From Verrucomicrobiales bacterium (GTDB lineage: Bacteria; Verrucomicrobiota; Verrucomicrobiia; Limisphaerales; CANJXF01), in contig CANJXF010000036.1 in NCBI GenBank assembly GCA_947478865.1, positions 1 through 43,455 of the forward strand: a stretch of DNA of 43,455 bases. Direction: 5' to 3'. Each line of letters begins with the position of its first letter. The stretch's first letter is position 1. A model generated the notes under the pieces. The model was not told where the DNA came from, ran no database searches, and was given only the letters and a program-made list of their open reading frames with translations. The position numbers and the translations under genes were made by a program. Shown one piece after another: positions 18,916 through 31,818 of the stretch.

Positions 18916-20379
18916 TCAGCTTAATATCTCGCGAACGACCCGCGCTTCGTCCGTCGGCCCGATCAACCGTTGTTTTAACCCGAGATACGAGTAACCAAAC
19001 TGGTACGGATCAAACCCCATTTGGTTCAACAAGGTGGCTTGTAAATCGCGCACGGTAACCTTGTCGCGGACCACGTGATAACCGAAATCGTCGGTCTCGC
19101 CGAAAGTCATGCCCGACTTCACCCCGCCGCCCGCCATCCAGATGGAAAAACAGTTGGGATGATGGTCGCGACCCAGAAAGGTTGATCCGTTGCGCGCTTC
19201 GTTCATCGGGGTGCGACCGAATTCACCGCCCCAGATTACGAGCGTGTCTTCGAGCATGCCGCGCTGTTTGAGATCTTTGACGAGCGCGGCGCTGGCTTGA
19301 TCGACGTCGCGGCATTTCTTGGGAAGTCCGGTGACGAGATCGTTGTCAGCCGCCGTGCCGTGCATGTCCCAACCCCAATCAAACAGTTGCACGAAGCGCA
19401 CCCCTTTTTCCACCAGGCGACGCGCCTGCAAACAATTGTTCGCGAACGAACCTTCGCCCGGTTTCGCGCCGTACATTTCGCGGATGTAATCCGGCTCCTT
19501 CGCGATATCGAAGACTTCCGGCACGGTGACCTGCATGCGATAGGCGAGTTCATATTGCTCGATGCGCGTCAGCGTTTCGGGATCGCCGAACAATTTCGCC
19601 TCGGCCTCGTTCAATTTGTGCAACGCATCCAGACTGCGACGACGGCTCGCGCGATCCATTCCGGCGGGGTTTTCCGAATACAAAATCGGCGCGCCCGACG
19701 TGCGGCATTGGACCCCTTGATAAACGCTCGGCAAAAACCCGCTGCCCCAAAGACTTTTTCCGCCCGTGGGATCGGTTCCGCCGCTCAGCAGAACGACAAA
19801 TCCCGGCAAATCCTGGTTCTCGCTGCCGAGTCCGTAGGTGAGCCAGGAACCCATCGAGGCCGCGCCCGCGCGCTGCGTTCCGGTGAAGAGAAACAGTTCC
19901 GCCGGCGAATGATTGAATTGATCGGTCCACATCGATCGGATGATGCAGGTTTCATCAACGATCTCGGCCATATGCGGGAGAATGTCGCTGACCCACGCGC
20001 CGCTCTTGCCGTGCTGCCGAAATTTGTGCGGCGTGCCCAACATTTTCGGAACCCCTTTGATGAACGCAAATTTTTGTCCTTTCAACAATTCGTCGGGACA
20101 CGGTTGCATGTTCAATTCGACGAGCTTCGGTTTCCAATCGAACAAGTCGAGCGACGACGGCGCGCCGGACATGTGCAGATAAATGATCGACTTTGCCCGC
20201 GCCGGAAGCACGGGAGACTGCACGACCATTGGAGATTTTTTTGCGGCGGCGGCCATCCCGTCGCGCGCCATCAATCCACCCAAAGCCACGCTGCCGACGC
20301 TTAACCCGGCGCGTTGCAAAAATTGCCTTCGCGTGAGCGCGCGGGCATGGGCGAGGCGAAATTCCATTGGATTCATCAT
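18916..20379 (-). CDS. DUF1501 secreted protein with Tat signal
   Basis: 487 residues from ATG 20379, which overlaps the TGA of the upstream DUF1553 gene (TGATG), so the two are co-translated. The longer open frame to 20436 lies inside that gene. A twin-arginine signal (LTRRQFLQRAG, about residues 15-25) is followed by a hydrophobic stretch. The body is DUF1501, an alkaline-phosphatase/sulfatase-like fold. Motifs include YLHMSGAPSSLDLFDWKP, GFVVLLSGGTDPTGGKSLWG, VIWGGEFGRTP and GRDHHPNCFSIWMAGGGVK. The protein is almost always encoded next to DUF1549/DUF1553 cytochromes in planctomycetes and verrucomicrobia. Substrate unknown; sulfatase-like activity is often suggested but unproven. Confidence 0.92.
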   Translation of the reverse strand: MMNPMEFRLAHARALTRRQFLQRAGLSVGSVALGGLMARDGMAAAAKKSPMVVQSPVLPARAKSIIYLHMSGAPSSLDLFDWKPKLVELNMQPCPDELLKGQKFAFIKGVPKMLGTPHKFRQHGKSGAWVSDILPHMAEIVDETCIIRSMWTDQFNHSPAELFLFTGTQRAGAASMGSWLTYGLGSENQDLPGFVVLLSGGTDPTGGKSLWGSGFLPSVYQGVQCRTSGAPILYSENPAGMDRASRRRSLDALHKLNEAEAKLFGDPETLTRIEQYELAYRMQVTVPEVFDIAKEPDYIREMYGAKPGEGSFANNCLQARRLVEKGVRFVQLFDWGWDMHGTAADNDLVTGLPKKCRDVDQASAALVKDLKQRGMLEDTLVIWGGEFGRTPMNEARNGSTFLGRDHHPNCFSIWMAGGGVKSGMTFGETDDFGYHVVRDKVTVRDLQATLLNQMGFDPYQFGYSYLGLKQRLIGPTDEARVVREILS

Positions 20380-23300
20380 CAACCTTTCGTCAAAACTCCG
20401 TCGAGATTCAGCAACACATTTGCGACGACGGTCCACGCGGCGGCTTCGGCGGAATCGATTCCCGGCGGTAATGCGCCAATTGGTTTTGTCGCAAGTTCGA
20501 TCGCTTCTTTTTCGTTCGATCGATAGCGCGCCAATTCGGATTCGTACAACTCTTTCAACGTCGTCATTTCCGATTTGGTTGGTGGTCTGGCCAACGCGAG
20601 TTGCAGGCCAAACCGAATCCGTTCATCGATTGTGTCGCCGCCTTCCTTGTGCAGGCGACGGCCGAGCGCTTGGGCGGCTTCGACGTAAACCGGGTCATTC
20701 ATCGTGACGTAAGCCTGCAACGGCGTGTTCGTCGGCAAGCGCCGGAACGAACAGCTTTCGCGACTCGGCGCATCGAACGTCGCCATGCTCGGATACGGCA
20801 CGGTGCGCCGCCAGATGGTGTAGAGTCCGCGGCGATAACGGTCCTCGCCTTTGCTCGTGGCGTAGGTGCGCTCGCCGTTGAAGGCGGCGCGCCATAAGCC
20901 ATCAGGTTGCGGAGGGTAAACGCTTGGCCCGCCGATTTTCCGGCTCAACAATCCACTGAGCGCGAGCGCCTGGTCACGAACCGTTTCCGCGTCCAACCGC
21001 TGGCGCGGCGAGCGGGCGAGCAAACGATTGCGCGGATCTTTCTGCAACAGCTCCGGTGTGAGCCGCGAACTTTGCTGGTAAGTCGCGCTCATCACGATTT
21101 TTTTGAGAAATTGTTTCACGTTCCAGCCGCTATCGCGCAGCTCAACCGCGAGCCAGTCGAGCAACTCGGGATGGCTCGGCAAGGTTCCCTGCGTTCCAAA
21201 ATCCTCTTCGGTTTCCACGATGCCGGTGCCAAAAAATTGCGCCCAAAAGCGATTCGCGGTGACGCGCGCCGTCAGCGGATTTTCCGGGCTCATCAACCAT
21301 TGAGCGACGCCGAGGCGGTTCGTCGGCGCGTTCGCCGGCCATGGATTGAATGCAGCCGGAACGCCGGGAGAAACTTCGTCGCCGGGCAGAAGATAACTGC
21401 CTTTGCTTAACATGCGGCTGGTGCGGCGCTCGGCGCTGGCGACTTCCTTCATCACCGGGACCATCACCGGCTTGATCGCCGCCAGCTGCTTTTTCAACGA
21501 CTCGATTTCGCCAGCGCGTCGAGCCGTCGTGGCGGCGAATCGGCGAAACCATTTGCTGATTTCTTCCTGCTCTTTGGGTGAGCGTTTTTCGGAAGCGACC
21601 GCCAGAGCGGGGGCAATTTCTTCCGGAATTGCCAGCACGGGAGAGGGGAGCGCCGCTGCCGAAATTCTGAAACGGCCCAGCACCTGTTTGCCGCCAGCGT
21701 TCTGCACCAGCTTGATCGTCAAATTTCCCGGCGGCAATTGGGTCGCCACCTCGAAAACCGCGGAGTGAGATTTTCCCTCGCTCCCGTTGGCGGACCAGCC
21801 GGCTTTCGGCTCCGGCTTTCCTTCGATCGTCTTTCCAATGTCATGATTGGCTCCAATAAAGCTGGCCGTCGCACGGGAAAATTTAACCGGCTGTTCGCCG
21901 CCGAGCGCAAAGCGGGCGTTCGGGCTGGGCGCATCAGCAGATTTTGTTTCCCAAACTGATTCGCGTTTTGCGTTGAGCGCGACGAGCCGAAAATTCGCAA
22001 GCCGCGCGCCGACTTCGGGATCGGTGCGATTCCATATCACGATGGATTCAATGGGCTGTTCGCTGCCAAGATCGACTTCCCACCACGGATTGTTTTCGGA
22101 TTGAGTATGAGTCGTTGATTTGGCGGCTTCATAATTTCCGTTCGTATTTCCATCAATCGCCAATTGAGGGGGGCCATCGAAACCGACGCTCGACTGGCTG
22201 GCTTTTCCGGATGGCGCGCTGTTGGTTTTTCCCCGGAAAATCTGGACCTCGGCCAAGGAAAGAATCCGCTGCTCGCCCGGCAACTCGATGCGCACAAATT
22301 GAGCCTTGAAGTCTTTTTCGGAATCCGGCCTGAACGCGGCTTCAATTTGATTGAGCAGAAAATTTCCTGAACCCGAACGCCCCGGGCCATTTTTAACCAG
22401 AGTTTCATCCGGAAGAACTTCGAGCCGCACTGCCGACAAATTACTCACGGCCGAATGGACGGTGACCGTGTAAGTGTCCGTTGCGGGCGCGGGATTGGTC
22501 GCGAGCAACGAATGATCCTCCAGTTTTTTGAAGGACGTCCCGTTCTTGGATTTGAACTCGATCGGCTCAAGTGGCTTCCATGCTGTCTCGTCGCCATGAG
22601 TTTTTTGCCACGCGAAAAACTCATCGAGAAGTTCCGGCGAGGAGGTTTCCAGTTGCTTTTCGAGCGCCGCGATTTGATTGCTCAACCCCTTGATTTTTAC
22701 GGCTTCATCCGCGTTTGGCACCGGCATGGTCGGGCGCTCGTCGGGTTGATCGTTGTCCTGGGTCTGATTGAAGAACGAGTAAAACTGATAGTATTCCTTT
22801 TGGGTGATCGGATCGAATTTGTGCGTGTGACATTGTGCGCAACCCATCGTCAGACCCATCCAGACTTGCACGGTGACGTTGGCTCGATCTTTCACTGCGG
22901 CCACGCGCCATTCTTCGTCGTCGGTTCCGCCTTCGGTGTTAGTCATCGTGTTGCGATGAAACGCGGTCGCGGTGCGCTGTTCTTCAGTGGCGTTTTCCAG
23001 CAGATCTCCGGCGAGTTGCTCGATGGTAAATTGGTCAAATGGCAGGTTGCGATTCAGCGCGTTGATGACCCAATCGCGATACGGCCAGATGTTCAGCCGC
23101 AATGGATCCGAGCCGTAACCGGCGGAATCCGCGTAGCGCGCCAGATCCATCCACAGGCGCGCCCAACGTTCGCCAAACGACGGAGAAGCGAGCAGGCGAT
23201 CGACTAATTTTTCGTAGGCGCTGGCCGATTGGTCTTTGCTGAAAGCTTCAACTTCCGAGGGCGCCGGCGGCAATCCGGTCAGGTCGAGCGACAGTCGGCG

Positions 23301-23864
23301 AATTAAAGCGGAGCGTTCGGCAGGCGGAGACGGCTTTAATTTCGCCGCTTCAATCTTCGCGAGAATAAAATGATCGATGCTGTTGCGCGGCCAGCGTTTG
23401 TTTCTGACGGCGGGCAGAGCCGGGCGAACCGGCTTCACGAACGCCCAATGCTTTTCGTAGGGCGCGCCTTGTTGGATCCATTTTTTTAGCAAAGCGATTT
23501 CCTGGATCGTCAGCGGATGACCGTCTTTGGGCGGCGGCATGATTTCCTCGGGATCTTTGCTGCTGATGCGTTTCACCAGTTCGCTGTGCGCCAAATCATT
23601 GGGCGCGATGGCGAATGTCCCGCCGCTGCGTTCTTTGGTGGCGTTTTCCCGAACGTCCAGGCGAAGTTTTCCTTTGCGCGCTGCTTCATCCGGTCCGTGG
23701 CAATGAAAACATTTTGACGAAATGATCGGGCGAATCTGAGCATTGAAATCAACGGAGTCCGCGGCGGAAACAGGCGCTGCGGAAAGGGTTGAGGCCAGGA
23801 ACACCGCACCCAAAACGGGCGCGAGATTCGAAGCGATAGATTTTGCCGCAGCGAAACCGGTCAT
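20379..23864 (-). CDS. DUF1549/DUF1553 planctomycete-type cytochrome c protein
   Basis: 1161 residues from ATG 23864, chosen because it gives a signal peptide ([19 protein letters not shown]); the frame extends to 23954. Order: planctomycete cytochrome c domain with haem motif CFHCH (about residues 52-56), DUF1549 (PSD1; starts near [17 protein letters not shown]), a further CAQCH site after PSD1, and an inserted discoidin/F5-8C-like carbohydrate-binding domain (about 560-640, with [20 protein letters not shown]). DUF1553 (PSD2) follows at about 820-1160. It is probably periplasmic, forming a redox-active partner for the DUF1501 protein. Family roles are not biochemically settled; polysaccharide-linked oxidation is the usual inference and the binding domain supports it. 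Confidence 0.92.
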
Positions 23865-24133
23865 AGCGTGGCAAAAGTGTATTGCTGAAAATGTTCCTCG
23901 GCAATCCCGCGTAAAGGGAGGGATCGACGGTCTGATTCCAGCGGAATCCTTCACGGATAAATTCAGTTTTTGAAAATCGTTCAGATATTTTTCTCGCGTG
24001 GTTAAGTCCTTTTCGCTACTGAAAACACGACGGATTCTTCAGCGACGGAGAACAGGCGCATTGGGTTGTTTTTTAACCAAATGCCGCGTGTCTCCCATTA
24101 TGCGTCGATGAACATCTCCGTTTATTTAACTCC

Positions 24134-25480
24134 ATGAAAAAAATCCTTGAAGAAATTCGTCGCTCAAAGCACGAGAAAATAAAAGTTGCCGTCACAGACA
24201 TCGACGGCGTTTTGCGCGGCAAATATATCAACAAGGAAAAGTTCCTTTCCGCCGCCCAGAACGGTCTCGGCTTTTGTAACGTCGTTTTCGGCTGGGATTC
24301 CGGCGACGTCTGTTACGACAACACGCCTTACACCGGTTGGCACACCGGTTATCCCGACGCGATGGCGAAACTGGATTTGTCCACCGCTCGAACCATTCCC
24401 TGGGAGAATAATCTTCCCTTTTTCCTCGGTGACTTTGAAAACGGCGATGGCAAGGCCTTGGAAGTTTGTCCGCGTCAGCTTTTGAAAAAAGTCATCGCGC
24501 GCGCCGCCAAAGCCGGGTTCACCGCCAAATGTTCGATGGAGTTCGAATGGTTCAACTTTCGCGAAACGGCGCAGACGGTTGCGGATAAGAAATTCACGTC
24601 GCTCGAACCGCTCACGCCGGGAATGTTCGGCTACTCCGTTTTGCGTACGAGCCAGAACCAGCCGTTTTTCACCGCGCTGATGGATGACCTCCGCGGCTTC
24701 GGCGTGCCCATTGAAGGGCTGCACACCGAGACTGGCCCGGGCGTTTTTGAAGCGGCGATCGTTTACTCGGACGCGCTCGAAGCGGCCGATCGCGCCGTGC
24801 TTTTCAAAAGCGGCGCGAAGGAAATTGCCCATCGCTTTGGCATTCTCCCGACCTTCATGGCCAAATGGAATTCGCAATTGCCCGGCTGCAGTGGACACGT
24901 TCATCAAAGTCTGTGGCGCGGTGAAAAAAACACCTTCTACGACGACAAAGGCGCGCATAACTTGAGTAAGACTTTCCAGAGCTACGCCGCCGGACAACTG
25001 CATTGCCTCCCGGAAATTCTGCCGTTCTTCGCGCCAACCGTGAACAGCTACAAACGTCTCGTCGATGGCTTTTGGGCTCCAACAAAAGTCACCTGGGGCG
25101 TGGACAACCGCACGACGGCCCTCCGTGCGATTCCTGGCAGCGCGAAATCAACCCGCCTTGAGACGCGTGTGCCCGGCTCCGACGCCAATCCGTATCTCGC
25201 CATGGCGGCGGCGATTGCGAGCGGGCTCTACGGCATCGAAAAAAATCTCCCGCTCAAAAGCGCGCCGGTAAAAGGCAGCGCCTACATGGAGAAAGATGCC
25301 GAGCGTCTGCCGCGCAATCTTTACGAGGCGACCATGCGGCTCTCCGATTCCAAAGTGGCGCGCGAAATCTTTGGCGACGCCTTCGTCGAACATTTTGTGC
25401 AAACCCGCCTTTGGGAGTGGCGACAATTCCAGGACTCCGTGACCAATTGGGAACTTCAGCGTTATTTCGAAATCATTTAA
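24134..25480 (+). CDS. glutamine synthetase-family ligase (gamma-glutamyl-amine type likely)
   Basis: 448 residues. An N-terminal GS beta-grasp-like domain (VAVTDIDGVLRGKYI) is followed by the catalytic barrel. Metal and substrate residues are kept: E136 and E138 (CSMEFEWF), E199 and E206 (TETGPGVFEAAI), H255 (GCSGHVHQS), NSYKRL, R326 (WGVDNR) and RLETR (E343, R345). True GlnA is usually ~470 residues and has an adenylylation site; this one lacks the classic NLYDLP-type loop. Its operon with an alcohol and an aldehyde dehydrogenase points to gamma-glutamylation of an amine or amino alcohol before oxidation. That assignment is inference from context. The next start is 4 bp after its stop. Confidence 0.85.
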   Translation: MKKILEEIRRSKHEKIKVAVTDIDGVLRGKYINKEKFLSAAQNGLGFCNVVFGWDSGDVCYDNTPYTGWHTGYPDAMAKLDLSTARTIPWENNLPFFLGDFENGDGKALEVCPRQLLKKVIARAAKAGFTAKCSMEFEWFNFRETAQTVADKKFTSLEPLTPGMFGYSVLRTSQNQPFFTALMDDLRGFGVPIEGLHTETGPGVFEAAIVYSDALEAADRAVLFKSGAKEIAHRFGILPTFMAKWNSQLPGCSGHVHQSLWRGEKNTFYDDKGAHNLSKTFQSYAAGQLHCLPEILPFFAPTVNSYKRLVDGFWAPTKVTWGVDNRTTALRAIPGSAKSTRLETRVPGSDANPYLAMAAAIASGLYGIEKNLPLKSAPVKGSAYMEKDAERLPRNLYEATMRLSDSKVAREIFGDAFVEHFVQTRLWEWRQFQDSVTNWELQRYFEII

Positions 25481-25484
25481 ATTT

Positions 25485-26627
25485 ATGGCCAATTCAACTT
25501 TCAGTTTTCCAACTTTAATTCACTTCGGCGCGGGGGTTCGCTCCCAATTGCCGGATTTTCTCGCGCAAAACAAAGTGGCGCGCCCTTTCATCGTCACGGA
25601 TCGCGGCATCGCGCCGCTGCCGATGTTTCAGGAGTTTTCGGAATCTCTTTCGAACAAAACTTTGCAGGTTGCCACTTTTTCCGACATCTGGGGCAACCCG
25701 ACCAAATCGCAGGTGATCGCCGGAGTGAAAGCGTTCGCGGCGCACGGAGCCGATTCGATCATCGGCCTCGGCGGCGGCGCGGCGCTCGATGTCGCGAAAG
25801 CCATCGCGCTCATGGTCAATCATCCGGGCGACTTGTTCGATTACGAGGACGGCAAGCCCGACGCATTGCCCATCGATCAAGCAATTCCATTTCTCGTCGC
25901 GCTCCCGACCACGTCGGGAACGGGCAGCGAAGTGGGACGCAGCGCGGTTATTTCCGACGACGCGACGCATGTGAAGAAAATCGTTTTCTCGCCGCGGCTG
26001 CTCGCCAAAGCGGTGTATGCTGACCCGGAACTCACGCTCGACTTGCCTGCGAAAATAACCGCTGCCACCGGCATGGATGCGCTGACGCATTGCATCGAGG
26101 CATTTCTCGCCAAGGGCTATCACCCGATCTGCGACGGCATCGCGCTCGAAGGCCTTCGGCTGGGCGCCGCGAGTTTGGAAAAATCGGTGAAAAGCCCTCG
26201 CGACATCGAAGCACGCAGCGCGATGATGATGTCATCGATGATGGGCGCGATCGCGTTCCAAAAAGGTTTGGGCCTCACCCATTCGTGCGCGCACGCGTTG
26301 AGCGCGGTTGCGGACATGCACCATGGATTGGCGAATGCCGTGATGATGCCTTACGCGTTGCCGTTTAATATTCAGACTGTCCCCGAACGTTTCGAGCGGA
26401 TGGCGATGACCATCGGGCTCAAAGATGTTTCGGGCAACGGTTTCATCCAATGGCTGCGCGACTTGAACGCGGCCGTCGGAATTCCCGCCAGGCTCTCGGA
26501 TGCCGGCGTGAAAAAGGAGCAGCTCGATCGCCTCGTGCAAATCGCCGTGGCCGATGTTTGTCATCAGAATAATCCGCGTGCGGTGACCGAGGAAGATTTC
26601 CGCCGCATCTTCTCCGCAGCACTCTGA
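25485..26627 (+). CDS. iron-containing alcohol dehydrogenase
   Basis: 380 residues, cytosolic. The N-terminal Rossmann-like domain has LGGGAALDVAKAIAL (95-109) for NAD(P) binding and TTSGTGSEV (142-150). The C-terminal helical domain carries the four metal ligands of the family: D198 and H202 (GMDALTHCIEAF), H266 and H280 (GLTHSCAHALSAVADMHHGL). It oxidises a primary alcohol or reduces an aldehyde. Between a GS-like ligase and an aldehyde dehydrogenase, it would convert an amino-alcohol or hydroxyacid intermediate to the aldehyde for the next enzyme. It starts 4 bp after the ligase gene and ends 3 bp before the ALDH gene. Substrate not deducible. Confidence 0.93.
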   Translation: MANSTFSFPTLIHFGAGVRSQLPDFLAQNKVARPFIVTDRGIAPLPMFQEFSESLSNKTLQVATFSDIWGNPTKSQVIAGVKAFAAHGADSIIGLGGGAALDVAKAIALMVNHPGDLFDYEDGKPDALPIDQAIPFLVALPTTSGTGSEVGRSAVISDDATHVKKIVFSPRLLAKAVYADPELTLDLPAKITAATGMDALTHCIEAFLAKGYHPICDGIALEGLRLGAASLEKSVKSPRDIEARSAMMMSSMMGAIAFQKGLGLTHSCAHALSAVADMHHGLANAVMMPYALPFNIQTVPERFERMAMTIGLKDVSGNGFIQWLRDLNAAVGIPARLSDAGVKKEQLDRLVQIAVADVCHQNNPRAVTEEDFRRIFSAAL

Positions 26628-26630
26628 GTT

Positions 26631-28004
26631 ATGTTGAAAGTTATCAATCCAGCCACCGCCCAGGTCATTCGCGAACTCGAAACCGACAACCCGGAATCCG
26701 TCGCCGAAAAATTCCAACGAGCGCAACTCGCGCAAGAGATTTGGGCATGCGTTCCGCTGGATGATCGGTTGAAAGCGATTCGCAATTTTCGCGAACTCAT
26801 CGTCCAGCGCACCGAAGAACTCGCGCAAATTTTAACCAGCGAAGTCGGCAAGCCGATCTCGCAATCCCGGAGTGAGCTGAAAGGGTTGTTGGGTCGCATC
26901 GATTTCTTCCTCGAGAACGCTGCCCGCGTCTTGCGCGACGAGACGGTGCTTTCCGATCCAGCGCAAAAGCTGGAGGAAAAAATTACGCACGAGCCGCTCG
27001 GCGTGATCGGCAACATCTCGGCCTGGAACTATCCGTATTATGTCGGCTCGAATGTTTTCATTCCCGCACTGCTCGCCGGAAATGCGGTTCTCTATAAACC
27101 GTCGGAATTTGCCGCGCTCACCGGATTGGCCATTGCCGATTTGCTCCATGAGGCCGGAATTCCAGACGACGTTTTTATTCCATTGATTGGCCGCGGCGAT
27201 GTCGGTGCGGAACTCTGCCGCCAGCCGATCGCCGGAATTTTTTTCACCGGCTCCTACGCCACCGGACAGAAAATCGCCGAAGCCGCGGCCAAGCGCTTGA
27301 TGAAAGTGCAGCTCGAACTGGGCGGCAAAGATCCAACCTACGTCCGCGAGGATGCCGATGTGGATGCGGCGGCTGAAAGCCTGGCTGACGGCGCCTTTTA
27401 CAATTGTGGACAAAGCTGCTGCTCCGTGGAGCGAATCTACGTTCACGAGAAAGTCTATGACGCGTTCGTTGAAGCCTTTTTCAAGACGGTGAAAACATTT
27501 GTGGTGGGCGATCCGCTGGATGACAAAACCTACATTGGCCCCGTGACGCGCCGCGAACACCTTGCCGTTTTGGATCGGCAGGTCAGTGACGCCTTGAAGC
27601 AGGGAGCGAAGTTGCTCTGCGGCGGCAAACGCGCGGCTGGTCCTGGTTTTTATTTCGAACCAACGGTCTTCGCGAACGTGAATCATTCCATGGAACTGAT
27701 GCGCGAAGAAACGTTTGGCCCGCTGATCGGCATTCAAAAAGTCAGCAGCGATGCGGAAGCGATTCAATTGATGAACGACACCGAGTATGGACTCACGGCC
27801 GGCGTCTATTCAAAAGCCCGCGAGCGTGCCACGGCGATCCTAGCCGAAATCAATTCCGGCTCCGTCTATTGGAACTGTTGCGACCGCGTCAGCCCGCGAC
27901 TCCCCTGGTCCGGTCGCGGCCACTCTGGAGTGGGAACGACGCTCTCCACCTATGGAATCCAAACCTTTGTCCAGCCGAAGGCGTGGCATTTGAGGGGTGT
28001 TTGA
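26631..28004 (+). CDS. NAD(P)-dependent aldehyde dehydrogenase
   Basis: 457 residues, the usual ALDH length. Cofactor and catalytic residues are all present: N133 (SAWNYP), E229 (LELGGKDP), and nucleophile C263 (YNCGQSCC). Another landmark is REETFGPLIGI. The C-terminus (RVSPRLPWSGRGHSGVG) matches the ALDH branch found beside GS-like ligases. It oxidises an aldehyde, probably made by the preceding dehydrogenase, to the acid. Last gene of a three-gene operon with spacings of 3-4 bp. Confidence 0.93.
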   Translation: MLKVINPATAQVIRELETDNPESVAEKFQRAQLAQEIWACVPLDDRLKAIRNFRELIVQRTEELAQILTSEVGKPISQSRSELKGLLGRIDFFLENAARVLRDETVLSDPAQKLEEKITHEPLGVIGNISAWNYPYYVGSNVFIPALLAGNAVLYKPSEFAALTGLAIADLLHEAGIPDDVFIPLIGRGDVGAELCRQPIAGIFFTGSYATGQKIAEAAAKRLMKVQLELGGKDPTYVREDADVDAAAESLADGAFYNCGQSCCSVERIYVHEKVYDAFVEAFFKTVKTFVVGDPLDDKTYIGPVTRREHLAVLDRQVSDALKQGAKLLCGGKRAAGPGFYFEPTVFANVNHSMELMREETFGPLIGIQKVSSDAEAIQLMNDTEYGLTAGVYSKARERATAILAEINSGSVYWNCCDRVSPRLPWSGRGHSGVGTTLSTYGIQTFVQPKAWHLRGV

Positions 28005-28236: not shown

Positions 28237-28275
28237 GATGTTAAAACCAATGACCAACCTCGTCTAAACCGGAAT

Positions 28276-28455
28276 TCCGAGATAGGAATTGGAAATCGGC
28301 GGTGGAGCGGCGGGCGTCCGTGCCTGCCGTAGAGCCGGGGCGTCCTGCCCGGCGGATCAACGCATCCATGATCAAGCCGCTGGAACATTTCAGGACCGCT
28401 CAATCTTTCCATCGTCTTTTCCGGGCGCCAGCGCCTGCCGCTACTTCGGAATTCG
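28276..28455 (+). repeat. dispersed intergenic repeat, copy A
   Basis: About 180 bp nearly matching, in reverse complement, the element at 31527-31734. Shared landmarks are CAATTCC-type ends, GGCGGGCGTCCG, GTAGAGCCGGGGCGTC, CGGCGGATCAA, GCTGGAACATTTCAG, CGCTCAATCTTTCC, CGTCTTTTCCGGGCG and CTACTTCGGAATTCG. This copy lacks about 28 bp of palindrome present in copy B. It lies in a gene-free stretch. Confidence 0.88.
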
Positions 28456-28748
28456 GGTTAAAGCTAATCCCCATGCGCAACCGGTTAAATCGCCTCATAG
28501 ACGAGAAGCTCGTCAGGTTGATGTTGTAAGCGGTTACGTTATCGGTGGAGTCCGGAACCGTTGTGAGGTGTGCATGGTTCCCACTCACCTGCGATAAGTG
28601 CGTAATCCTGGTTCGACTTGAACTTCATTACAAAGTCCTGGGCAACGTGAGCCAAGAGTCGGAGGAGTGCGAGATATGGAAAAGGCTTCGAGAGTGCCCC
28701 ATCGCCTGCAATGAATTCAGAAGCCGAACAAATCGACTTTTTATGAGT
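28456..28748. other. gene-free stretch with no recognised content
   Basis: About 290 bases between repeat A and the P-domain head. Open frames exist on both strands but none has family resemblance or a start signal. A minus-strand reading (about 28540-28650, FVMKFKSNQDYALIAGEWEP) looks protein-like but I cannot name it; it may be another relic. Confidence 0.35.
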
Positions 28749-28755
28749 AAGGAGA
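28749..28755 (+). promoter_or_regulatory. strong Shine-Dalgarno for the P-domain head
   Basis: AAGGAGA lies a few bases before the ATG at 28759. It is one of the best ribosome binding sites in the window, although the gene it serves is broken 40 codons later. Confidence 0.7.
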
Positions 28756-28758
28756 AGC

Positions 28759-28877
28759 ATGAAACCAGTCCATGTTGGACTTGCCACGATACTTGCTGCA
28801 GTCGCGTTAAACACTGTCTCGGGACAGATTGTCGAAACAAACCTGTTCACCGGGGTGAACCGCCCCGTGCCAGATGG
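28759..28877 (+). pseudogene. N-terminal head of a third P-domain surface protein
   Basis: ATG 28759 starts a clear signal peptide (MKPVHVGLATILAAVALNT) followed by GQIVETNLFTGVNRPVPDG, which parallels GQVTETYTFTADRLVPDG in the intact protein at 7886-10036. After the PDG codons the similarity stops and glycosyltransferase sequence begins in another frame. The fused frame continues as nonsense to 28989. This head has no body, while the gene at 5591 is a body without a head; about 20 residues are missing between them, so they are not simply reciprocal. Confidence 0.75.
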
Positions 28878-29162
28878 TACGATTATCCGGAAGCCTTTGG
28901 CTTGGTGCTCATCGAAGCGATGCTTTGCGGAACGCCGGTTGCCGCGATCAATTTTGGTGCGGTGCCGGAAATCATCGAGGATGGCGTGACCGGAGTGGTG
29001 GCCAGATCGAATGACAATTTTGCGGAGGCGGCGGCGCGATGCTTCCGTCTCGATCGACAGGTCATCCGATCCTGCGCGGAGCAACGGTTTTCGGCGGAGC
29101 GCATGGCGCGGGATTACGCCCGCTTCTACGAAAAAATTGGATCGGGAACCCTGAGCTTATGA
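28875..29162 (+). pseudogene. glycosyltransferase family 4, C-terminal fragment
   Basis: About 95 residues starting YDYPEAFGLVLIEAMLCGTP, continuing GAVPEIIEDGVTGVV and RFSAERMARDYARFYEKI. This is the nucleotide-sugar-binding end of GT-B glycosyltransferases (GT4), where the EAFGLVLIEA Glu residues contact the donor. The N-terminal ~270 residues are missing and replaced by the P-domain head. The stop overlaps the PIG-L start (ATGA at 29159), so the pair was once an operon for glycan or exopolysaccharide synthesis. Confidence 0.85.
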
Positions 29163-29788
29163 AGGTACTCGTGATCGCTCCCCATCCCGACGACGAATGC
29201 CTGGGGTGCGGCGGAACCATCTGCCGGCACGCTGACCGGGGCGACCGGGTGGAGGCGGCATTTCTGACCTCGGGCGAACTGGGGCTCAAACAGCTCCCCC
29301 GGGAAGAGGCCTGGAAGATCCGGGAGGGCGAGGCCAGGCGGGCGGCGAAAATCCTCGGCATTTCCGCACTGCATTTCCTCCGATGCAGCGACTGGCTTCT
29401 GGGAGACGAAATTGAAAGGGCGGCGCTGGCTCTGGTTCCTCTACTCCAGGAATGGAAGCCAGACTTGATTTATCTCCCTCACCCGCTGGAATGGCATCCC
29501 GATCACAAAGCCTCGCTGCCAGTTGTGCGCGCGGCCCTCTCGCGCTGCAGAAATCCAGCGCCAGAGCTGCGAACCTACGAAGTGTGGACACCTCTTTCAG
29601 AGTATTGCCACGTGGAAGATGTGACGGGGGTCATGTCCCGGAAGTTGAAAGCCCTCCGGGCCCACCCGTCGCAACTGAAAGAATTCAACTACACCACTGC
29701 CATCCGCGCCTTGAACGAATATCGCGGGGCGCTGGCCGGAAAATGCAAGTATGCCGAGGTGTTTTCGTCTGCGTCAGCCCACTGCTAG
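29159..29788 (+). CDS. PIG-L family deacetylase
   Basis: 209 residues from ATG 29159, which overlaps the stop of the GT4 fragment. The zinc site is visible: PHPDDE (residues 8-13) with GCGGT following, and HPLEWHPDHKAS near residue 110. Members remove an acetyl group from GlcNAc-containing lipids or glycans (LmbE/BshB/PIG-L). With a glycosyltransferase partner it likely modifies a sugar intermediate. The gene is intact in sequence, but its operon partner is broken, so expression would depend on the hybrid upstream region. Confidence 0.92.
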   Translation: MKVLVIAPHPDDECLGCGGTICRHADRGDRVEAAFLTSGELGLKQLPREEAWKIREGEARRAAKILGISALHFLRCSDWLLGDEIERAALALVPLLQEWKPDLIYLPHPLEWHPDHKASLPVVRAALSRCRNPAPELRTYEVWTPLSEYCHVEDVTGVMSRKLKALRAHPSQLKEFNYTTAIRALNEYRGALAGKCKYAEVFSSASAHC

Positions 29789-31526: not shown

Positions 31527-31734
31527 CGAATTCCGAAGTAGGGGCAGGCGTCTTCGCCTGCCGTGAAGGGCGGGCGTCTCGCCGCCCGGAAAAGACGGTG
31601 GAAAGATTGAGCGGTTCTGAAATGTTCCAGCGCTTGGATCGTTGGTGCTTTGATCCGCCGGGCGGGACGCCCCGGCTCTACGACAGGCGCGGACGCCCGC
31701 CGCTACACCGCCGGTTTCCAATTCCTGTTTCGGG
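31527..31734 (-). repeat. dispersed intergenic repeat, copy B (inverted relative to A)
   Basis: Reverse complement of copy A at 28276-28455, 208 bp. It contains near-perfect short palindromes such as GGCAGGCGTCTTCGCCTGCC and GGGCGGGCGTCTCGCCGCCC that could form hairpins in RNA or DNA; the second is reduced in copy A. It occupies the spacer between convergent genes (esterase plus, toroid-like protein minus), so it may also serve as a terminator. Confidence 0.88.
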
Positions 31735-31818
31735 GTTCGGCTTTAATCCGGCTGCACGCCTGCTGTCACGGTTTCGTTCGCTGGCATTCTGTGACGCCGC
31801 CTAGCGCTTCTCCACTGC

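Follow-up and report, generated by a model that had tools for sequence, protein, structure and literature searches.

Organization of the gene cluster

The window, i.e. the whole 43,455-nucleotide stretch of DNA that was analysed, carries three closely spaced open reading frames on the forward strand, separated by gaps of 4 and 3 bases. As reported in the first-pass annotation, they encode a glutamine synthetase (GS)-like ligase, an iron-type alcohol dehydrogenase (ADH) and an aldehyde dehydrogenase (ALDH). Features of the region are summarized in Table 1.

Table 1. Features of the ligase-ADH-ALDH operon and its upstream flank.
Feature	Coordinates	Strand	Remarks
PSCyt1/PSCyt2/PSD1 gene	20379-23954		Pfam domains; divergent from the operon, on the far side of the intergenic region
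Intergenic region 5′ of the operon	23955..24133	.	ORF listing, promoter scan
GS-like gamma-glutamyl-amine ligase, probably gamma-glutamylethanolamide synthetase	24134..25480	+	448 aa, ATG; PF00120; W314; separate from GlnA in the tree
4-base spacer between ligase stop and ADH start	25481..25484	+	Read directly in the sequence
Iron-type alcohol dehydrogenase, probably gamma-glutamylethanolamide dehydrogenase	25485..26627	+	380 aa, ATG; PF00465, PF25137
3-base spacer between ADH stop and ALDH start	26628..26630	+	Site of a C26 gene in 44/50 relatives (best 80 of 573 matches)
Aldehyde dehydrogenase, probably forming gamma-glutamylglycine	26631..28004	+	457 aa, ATG; PF00171; ELGGK, GQSC

Family assignments were made with Pfam. 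The ligase matches Gln-synt_C (PF00120) with 334.9 bits, the ADH matches Fe-ADH (PF00465) with 149.4 bits and ADH_Fe_C (PF25137) with 166.2 bits, and the ALDH matches Aldedh (PF00171) with 457.7 bits. The ADH contains the motifs DALTHCIE (at 198) and GLTHSCAHAL/HHGLAN (at 263-279), and the ALDH contains ELGGK (at 229) and GQSC (at 260), which we take to be metal-binding and catalytic motifs. Phosphonoacetaldehyde dehydrogenase was rejected as the identity of the ALDH (242.0 bits against a cut-off of 635.65).

Neither a PuuB-type amine oxidase nor a PuuD hydrolase is encoded within 24134-28004; the ORF listing of this segment contains no hydrolase gene and no transporter gene. A simple scan of the intergenic region found no sigma-70-like promoter, and a terminator scan at the operon gave scores no better than those of shuffled sequence. 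The GC content of the window is 0.573 and that of the ligase, ADH and ALDH genes 0.555, 0.584 and 0.561, respectively; in the absence of a contrast, composition is uninformative on acquisition, either way.

The ligase and its active site

In an alignment with GlnA, the ligase keeps the metal ligands, the ATP residues and most of the glutamate-binding residues. The position of E327, occupied by glutamate in Escherichia coli GlnA and in the genome's own GlnA, is taken by W314, so that the ammonium-specific residue is lost. Tryptophan is also present at this place in IpuC and phenylalanine in Csal_0679; the corresponding residues of PauA7 and GlnA4 are W296 and F331 (PMC6529630). Y179 of GlnA lies opposite a gap, and the glutamate-binding N264 is replaced by proline (alanine in PuuA and Csal_0679). 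The D50 column holds an aspartate in the ligase, but inside a poorly aligned loop.

The curated cut-offs for GlnA, GlnIII and PuuA were all missed by the ligase, which scored 224.7 bits with the GlnA model (cut-off 429.15), and no NCBIfam cut-off was reached by the window ligase, L034 or L067. It is 41% identical to IpuC, 34% to Csal_0679 and 27% to PuuA; an identity of only 34% to Csal_0679 is too low for similarity to transfer function. The AlphaFold model (pLDDT 81.1) falls below 50 at residues 49-72, so no pocket argument was made, and its structure matches establish only the GS fold.

Phylogeny of the ligase

The relatives considered here are the best 80 of 573 ligase matches, to which the window ligase is 59-72% identical; absence of a feature from these 80 proves nothing about the remainder. 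In the first tree, 80 of the 81 sequences (window plus best 80 of 573) group with support of 85, L101 being without firm placement. In the second tree, from which PuuA and the Rhizobium leguminosarum sequence L148 were left out, all of them lie on one side of a branch with SH-aLRT 96. IpuC is outside this clade in both trees, on a long branch of unsure place. The Streptomyces coelicolor GlnA4 sequence was absent from the trees.

The ligase is separated from GlnA by a branch with support of 100 (first tree). Grouping with true GlnA, the outcome named in the first-pass annotation as contradicting its proposal, was thus not seen in the tree or in the model scores. The active site, the curated cut-offs and the tree rule out a true glutamine synthetase.

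Among the best 80 of 573 matches, the clade spans several phyla, with members in Bacteroidota, Betaproteobacteria, Bdellovibrionota and other groups. Within the phylum of the source organism it is rare (2/387 genomes at E 1e-100, including the source genome). The sister group includes plasmid loci of Pseudorhizobium, Burkholderia vietnamiensis and Rhodobacteraceae M382, the last not in the tree and assigned by 46% identity; no iron-type ADH is listed beside these ligases in a gene table that is incomplete.

Conserved gene neighbourhoods

Neighbouring genes were counted in those of the best 80 of 573 loci with sufficient flanking sequence: 1.2 kb or more beyond the ligase (75 loci), 3.9 kb or more beyond it (60) or 1.4 kb or more upstream (69). 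In 59 of the 75, an ADH gene follows on the same strand no more than 4 kb away, and in 49 of those 59 it is within 300 bases. ADH, C26 and ALDH genes follow the ligase in 41/60 loci, with ALDH as the final gene of the set; neither dehydrogenase is found downstream on the same strand in 11/60. Pedobacter frigoris (L112) is one relative that carries the whole cassette. Recurrence of the same set in relatives from several phyla indicates that it is more than a chance arrangement.

Where both dehydrogenases are present, a gene for a PuuD-like C26 hydrolase usually stands between them (44 of 50 loci among the best 80 of 573). This figure was counted from the locus listing and includes L064; the script gave 43/50, as the C26 frame of L064 runs further into the end of the ADH gene than the 60 bases it allowed. 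The first-pass statement that there is no PuuD-type hydrolase therefore holds for the operon, but not for the cassette as found in its relatives.

Upstream of the ligase, an ethanolamine-permease-like gene occurs in 29/69 loci (30 over all 80), the commonest transporter found adjoining clade ligases among the best 80 of 573. The name is that of the annotation; 28 of the 29 match TIGR00908 at E 4e-114 or better, approximately the curated cut-off. In 15/69 loci, in Betaproteobacteria, the ligase gene follows phnW in 2-aminoethylphosphonate operons, and 25/69 have neither upstream. These 25 loci, together with the 11/60 without ADH and ALDH, suggest that the clade's ligases may act on more than a single amine. 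Aquabacterium terrae (L117) is an example of a Betaproteobacterium with the PhnW-linked cassette and has a PhnS2-type binding protein. The nearest genome of the same order (G110, 52%) has the order permease-ligase-ALDH-ADH-class I amidotransferase, and its permease scores 387.4 bits against the TIGR00908 cut-off of 381.75.

The source genome, rated 97.31% complete, encodes two further glutamine synthetases. The search for a hydrolase elsewhere, proposed in the first-pass annotation, yielded a PuuD-like C26 gene on contig C32 (205.3 bits), a candidate only, and two proteins of the gamma-glutamyltranspeptidase family; PF05013 was not found in this genome. Its best TIGR00908 match reaches 83.1 bits (cut-off 381.75).

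Comparison with known systems

The ethanolamine gamma-glutamylation route of Chromohalobacter salexigens comprises PF00120-PF00465-PF00171-PF05013 proteins (PMC9397018 Table 2), and we took its ligase to be Csal_0679 (PDB 5dm3). The first three families are common to both systems, their activities in the window being predicted, but the two ligases fall in different clades. The hydrolase of C. salexigens is an N-formylglutamate amidohydrolase (PF05013), while the window's relatives have C26, and neither is in the window operon. The counterpart in Phaeobacter is likewise an operon of a ligase and two dehydrogenases; its proteins rise on phosphorylethanolamine, and EtoX binds ethanolamine with a Kd of 7.9 µM. 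Uptake in the C. salexigens/Phaeobacter system is by a TRAP transporter, unlike the transporterless window operon.

For GlnA4 of S. coelicolor, glutamylation of ethanolamine was shown and a route with another dehydrogenase was proposed (PMC6529630). Its cluster (SCO1611-SCO1615) shares with the window a ligase lacking E327, a dehydrogenase and an ALDH, but assigns the alcohol step to a short-chain dehydrogenase (SDR) and also has a regulator and a hydrolase gene. With the E. coli Puu pathway the window shares a GS-like ligase, a gamma-glutamyl intermediate (predicted here) and an ALDH step, and most relatives also share the PuuD-like hydrolase; an alcohol dehydrogenase stands in place of the amine oxidase PuuB. 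IpuC, annotated as gamma-glutamylisopropylamide synthetase, is encoded on plasmid pTC1 of Paenarthrobacter aurescens. A C26-like gene is nearby, as in the window's relatives, but P450, ferredoxin and SDR genes are also part of that cluster, and no iron-type ADH is listed in it.

Proposed pathway and alternatives

We consider it likely that the three genes form the core of a gamma-glutamylation route for an amino alcohol, with ethanolamine as the best candidate, predicted from the neighbours of the relatives. The ligase would use ATP to activate glutamate as gamma-glutamyl phosphate and couple this to the amino group of ethanolamine, so that gamma-glutamylethanolamide is formed. The ADH, presumed to act in the oxidative direction, would convert the terminal alcohol to an aldehyde using NAD(P)+, and the ALDH would turn this into gamma-glutamylglycine. 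A hydrolase coded elsewhere, perhaps the C26 protein of contig C32 or one of the two gamma-glutamyltranspeptidase-family proteins, would then free glycine and glutamate. The ethanolamine would probably come from membrane lipids. Comparative evidence thus favours the first-pass idea of amino-alcohol gamma-glutamylation followed by two oxidations, with ethanolamine as a candidate.

The same chemistry might act on another primary amino alcohol, be it alaninol, propanolamine or the product of an earlier hydroxylation elsewhere like that of the isopropylamine route, and yield another gamma-glutamyl amino acid. We regard this as unlikely, though not negligibly so: IpuC shares the tryptophan flap and is closer to the window ligase than Csal_0679, 25/69 loci (best 80 of 573) lack both upstream genes, and the cassette of G190 is preceded by genes for a proline-iminopeptidase-family hydrolase and an amidase-like protein (below its model's cut-off). 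However, IpuC lies outside the clade, although on a long branch of unsure place, its P450, ferredoxin and SDR are missing from the window operon, and the ethanolamine-permease-like gene is the commonest transporter beside clade ligases (best 80 of 573). Two unlinked tasks, with the dehydrogenases oxidising 4-hydroxybutyrate or a similar alcohol to a diacid and the ligase merely assimilating nitrogen, are improbable. The top curated models are indeed 4-hydroxybutyrate dehydrogenase for the ADH and succinic semialdehyde dehydrogenase for the ALDH, but both scores are under the cut-offs (361.2 vs 500 and 389.7 vs 521 bits), the three genes co-occur across several phyla, mostly with C26 between the dehydrogenases, and the ligase lacks E327 in a genome that has other glutamine synthetases.

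Very little probability attaches to a degraded or partial remnant, whose hydrolase and permease were lost and whose pathway is incomplete. The operon lacks both genes and the genome a good permease match, but the three reading frames are intact and retain their catalytic motifs, the ligase keeps 59-72% identity to its relatives, 6/50 of these (best 80 of 573) also lack C26 between ADH and ALDH, and a C26 gene is present on contig C32. Least credible is a Puu-type polyamine route with the ADH running backwards as a reductase of a gamma-glutamyl aldehyde. Polyamine-type ABC genes do adjoin the ligase at two of the three sister-group plasmid loci, and the window ligase matches the PuuA equivalog NF045547 with 213.1 bits; this is far under the cut-off of 650, on which ground the route was rejected, and a PuuB query had no match listed in the 80 loci (best 80 of 573). 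An alcohol substrate also fits ADH and ALDH without an amine oxidase.

Possible phosphonate link and significance

The first-pass description of a variant route stands as to the chemistry of the proposed ethanolamine pathway, but most of it is not new: the route has been published for C. salexigens and its first step for S. coelicolor GlnA4. What differs from the published systems is the ligase clade, the C26 hydrolase in relatives and an operon without a hydrolase or permease gene.

More tentatively, the ligase may belong to an amino-alcohol cassette with exchangeable inputs, either an ethanolamine permease or, in Betaproteobacteria, a 2-aminoethylphosphonate importer with PhnW. There the cassette could use a second amine brought in by the phosphonate importer (ethanolamine beside 2-aminoethylphosphonate), or it could process, by way of gamma-glutamyl intermediates, an amino alcohol that derives from a phosphonate; we consider this possible rather than probable. 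The part of the phosphonate literature searched by term makes no mention of such a link, and further literature may hold more. At L124, the one PhnW-linked locus in which the phosphonoacetaldehyde dehydrogenase family was looked for, a further ALDH fragment (240 aa, truncated where the locus ends) reaches 417.8 bits with that family (full-length cut-off 635.65). Ethanolamine and 2-aminoethylphosphonate are both lipid head groups, the former a common one.

The proposed pathway would extend B12-free ethanolamine use to a ligase clade that has no fitting curated name. The association with 2-aminoethylphosphonate operons suggests that scavenging of lipid-head-group nitrogen may be connected to phosphonate use, and the clade is now defined well enough to be targeted with assays.

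Organization of the operon

Inspection of the sequence bore out the three-gene operon proposed in the first-pass annotation: the genes for a glutamine synthetase (GS)-like ligase, an iron-type alcohol dehydrogenase (ADH) and an aldehyde dehydrogenase (ALDH) are intact, lie on one strand with gaps of 4 (ligase/ADH) and 3 bases (ADH/ALDH), and encode members of the corresponding Pfam families. A motif scan detected the expected motifs, which we take to be catalytic, in both dehydrogenases. Neither a hydrolase gene nor a transporter gene was present among the ORFs and Pfam matches of the operon.

Features of the operon and its surroundings in the window
Feature	Position	Strand	Remarks
PSCyt1/PSCyt2/PSD1 protein gene	20379-23954	-	upstream neighbour, opposite strand; Pfam
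Ligase (Gln-synt_C)	24134-25480	+	intact ORF; Pfam far over cut-off
ADH (Fe-ADH and its C-terminal domain)	25485-26627	+	intact ORF; Pfam far over cut-off
ALDH (Aldedh)	26631-28004	+	intact ORF; Pfam far over cut-off
Interspersed repeat, 163 bases	28265-28427	+	two copies 88% alike
ORF overlapping the PIG-L deacetylase gene	within 28545-29788
PIG-L deacetylase gene	29039-29788		102.8 bits
Interspersed repeat, 163 bases	31583-31745	-

Of the genes downstream, two were scanned against Pfam, one encoding a PIG-L deacetylase and the other a BD-FAE-type hydrolase. By eye, the end of the ORF overlapping the former presumably has similarity to a glycosyltransferase in its C-terminal part. Genome-wide, 20 full or partial matches to the interspersed repeat were found, both window copies included.

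The ligase and its phylogenetic position

The ligase scored below the cut-offs of the curated models for GlnA (224.7 bits; cut-off 429.15), GlnIII (232.1; 469.6) and PuuA (213.1; 650). Alignment with E. coli GlnA, whose numbering is used here, revealed conservation of the metal ligands E129, E131, E212, E220, H269 and E357, of H271 and R344 for ATP, and of G265, R321 and R359 for glutamate, with N264 replaced by P. E327 is replaced by W and Y179 lies opposite a gap; the D50 column holds D, but within a poorly aligning loop. In PMC6529630, glutamine synthesis is described as requiring E327 and D50; the place of E327 is occupied by W296 in PauA7 and F331 in GlnA4, and the pocket is said to accommodate a larger amine. 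The sub-cut-off scores, the E327 replacement and the tree placement rule out that the ligase is a GlnA.

Besides the window ligase, the genome has two GS genes, adjacent on contig C10 (9883-12234): one encodes its own GlnA (type I), in which E327 is present, and the other is read as type II. Since the genome carries its own GlnA and a second GS, the window ligase is, judging from gene content, probably dispensable for glutamine synthesis.

A search of genome contigs matched at least 590 stretches, at least 573 of them encoding relatives of the ligase. The best 80, which were kept, share 59-72% identity with it; their sources include Bacteroidota, Betaproteobacteria, Bdellovibrionota, Planctomycetota, Myxococcota and Spirochaetota, among others. 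One tree places the window ligase and these 80 on one side of a branch (SH-aLRT 96); the other joins 80 of the 81 with a value of 85, without settling the placement of L101. This clade is separate from its sister group (G110, a genome of the same order, Legionella lytica, Burkholderia vietnamiensis and Pseudorhizobium), from GlnA, and from IpuC and the group of the Chromohalobacter salexigens homologue Csal_0679, the last two being long branches of unsure exact position.

Among 116 genomes of the order (own included), a full-length ligase of >50% identity was found in only one other, G110, while G065 has a 59-residue piece (56% identity). Across 387 genomes of the phylum, matches at E 1e-100 occurred only in the window's genome and G190. 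Loci L035-L053 of same-order genomes carry a different ligase clade, which groups with Csal_0679; of these 19 loci, 14 have an ALDH gene in the vicinity of the ligase and seven have an ADH gene too, and several contigs end close by. A genome search found no member of that clade in the window genome.

Gene neighbourhoods of the relatives

Among the best 80 relatives, 75 loci extend 1.2 kb or more past the ligase, and in 59 of these an ADH gene follows within 4 kb in the same orientation (within 300 bases in 49); in L080 and L084 it is on the opposite strand. The 60 loci with at least 3.9 kb after the ligase comprise 41 with ADH, ALDH and a hydrolase of the PuuD-like C26 family, four with ADH and ALDH without C26, four with ADH without ALDH, and 11 with neither dehydrogenase. 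Both dehydrogenases are found downstream in 50 of the 80, with C26 between them in 44 (43 by script, one C26 frame overlapping the ADH end) and without it in six, the type to which the window operon belongs. The G190 order is ligase, ADH, C26, ALDH. L. lytica carries ligase, ALDH and ADH genes in that order, along with a gene whose annotation is GMP synthase and whose product is 37% identical to the class I amidotransferase of G110.

The amino-alcohol glutamylation and two oxidations suggested by the first-pass annotation are the best-supported reading, which draws on these neighbourhoods. Among the 69 of the best 80 loci in which the sequence before the ligase spans at least 1.4 kb, 29 have an ethanolamine-permease-like gene, on the ligase strand in all except L076. 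In 28 of the 29 it reached E <=4e-114 for TIGR00908, about the curated cut-off of that model; that of L076 scored 375.8 bits (cut-off 381.75). In G110 the order is ethanolamine permease-ligase-ALDH-ADH-class I amidotransferase. What supports the ethanolamine reading is therefore the gene content around the relatives' ligases, and not the window itself. It is weakened by three plasmid loci whose ligases share 46-48% identity with that of the window: there the incomplete gene table lists no iron-type ADH beside the ligase.

A different use of the ligase is possible in Mucilaginibacter, where L139 and L142 have it without ADH or ALDH and L108 ends just past it. Inspection by eye places ORFs resembling a type II GS and a gamma-glutamylcyclotransferase upstream in all three, and a kinase-like ORF comes after in L139 and L142.

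A probable variant of the ethanolamine route

The ethanolamine gamma-glutamylation route itself is already known. For C. salexigens it is listed as comprising PF00120, PF00465, PF00171 and PF05013 (PMC9397018); we infer that Csal_0679, the subject of PDB 5dm3 according to the entry title, is its ligase. PMC10132767 uses the tag of the neighbouring Csal_0678 beside EtoX, which binds ethanolamine (Kd 7.9 uM), and reports Phaeobacter operon proteins raised on phosphorylethanolamine. GlnA4 produces gamma-glutamylethanolamide, later steps being proposed (PMC6529630).

The window operon resembles this route in how it would work, but the described clusters also contain genes for a hydrolase and a transporter, both absent from it. 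We therefore class it as a variant rather than a full member, set apart by the clade of its ligase, by the C26 hydrolase that relatives have, and by these absences. The window genome encodes one clear C26 protein (contig C32, 205.3 bits; 36% identical to the cassette hydrolase of relative L064) and two gamma-glutamyltranspeptidase-family proteins (570.7 and 352.9 bits), all candidates that may complete the route; it contains no match to PF05013. No good ethanolamine permease was found in this genome (top match 83.1 bits); ethanolamine could be supplied by turnover of the cell's lipids or by another transporter, e.g. a TRAP system.

Association with 2-aminoethylphosphonate genes

Unexpectedly, 15 of the 69 loci have the 2-aminoethylphosphonate transaminase gene phnW ahead of the ligase; they are all read as Betaproteobacteria (including L117, L124, L141, L093, L102, L132, L085 and L088), and most have the rest of the cassette; the two matches are 45-142 bases apart in 14 of the 15. 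One representative each of PhnW, the importer parts PhnS2, PhnT2 and PhnU2, the regulator PhnR and the phosphonoacetate hydrolase PhnA passed the curated cut-offs. In nine of the 15 loci PhnA is encoded on the opposite strand. A 240-aa ALDH piece in L124 scored 417.8 bits for phosphonoacetaldehyde dehydrogenase, the cut-off of 635.65 applying to the whole protein. No locus among the 69 has both permease and PhnW, and this is not just a phylum effect, because both kinds are found among Betaproteobacteria (permease in L115 and L119), though as relatives the loci are not independent of one another. On a Rhizobium leguminosarum plasmid, a sister-group ligase has genes annotated as 2-aminoethylphosphonate transaminase, gamma-glutamyl hydrolase and GMC oxidoreductase upstream and an ALDH gene downstream.

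A term search of four phosphonate papers (PMC8154272, PMC10590968, PMC12366243 and PMC10574752) found no mention of glutamine synthetase; "glutamyl" was absent from all except PMC10590968, where its three occurrences concern PuuB or its reference. Titles and opening abstracts in a limited open-access literature search revealed no link between the ligase and phosphonate operons. The phosphonate context is the aspect most deserving a bench test.
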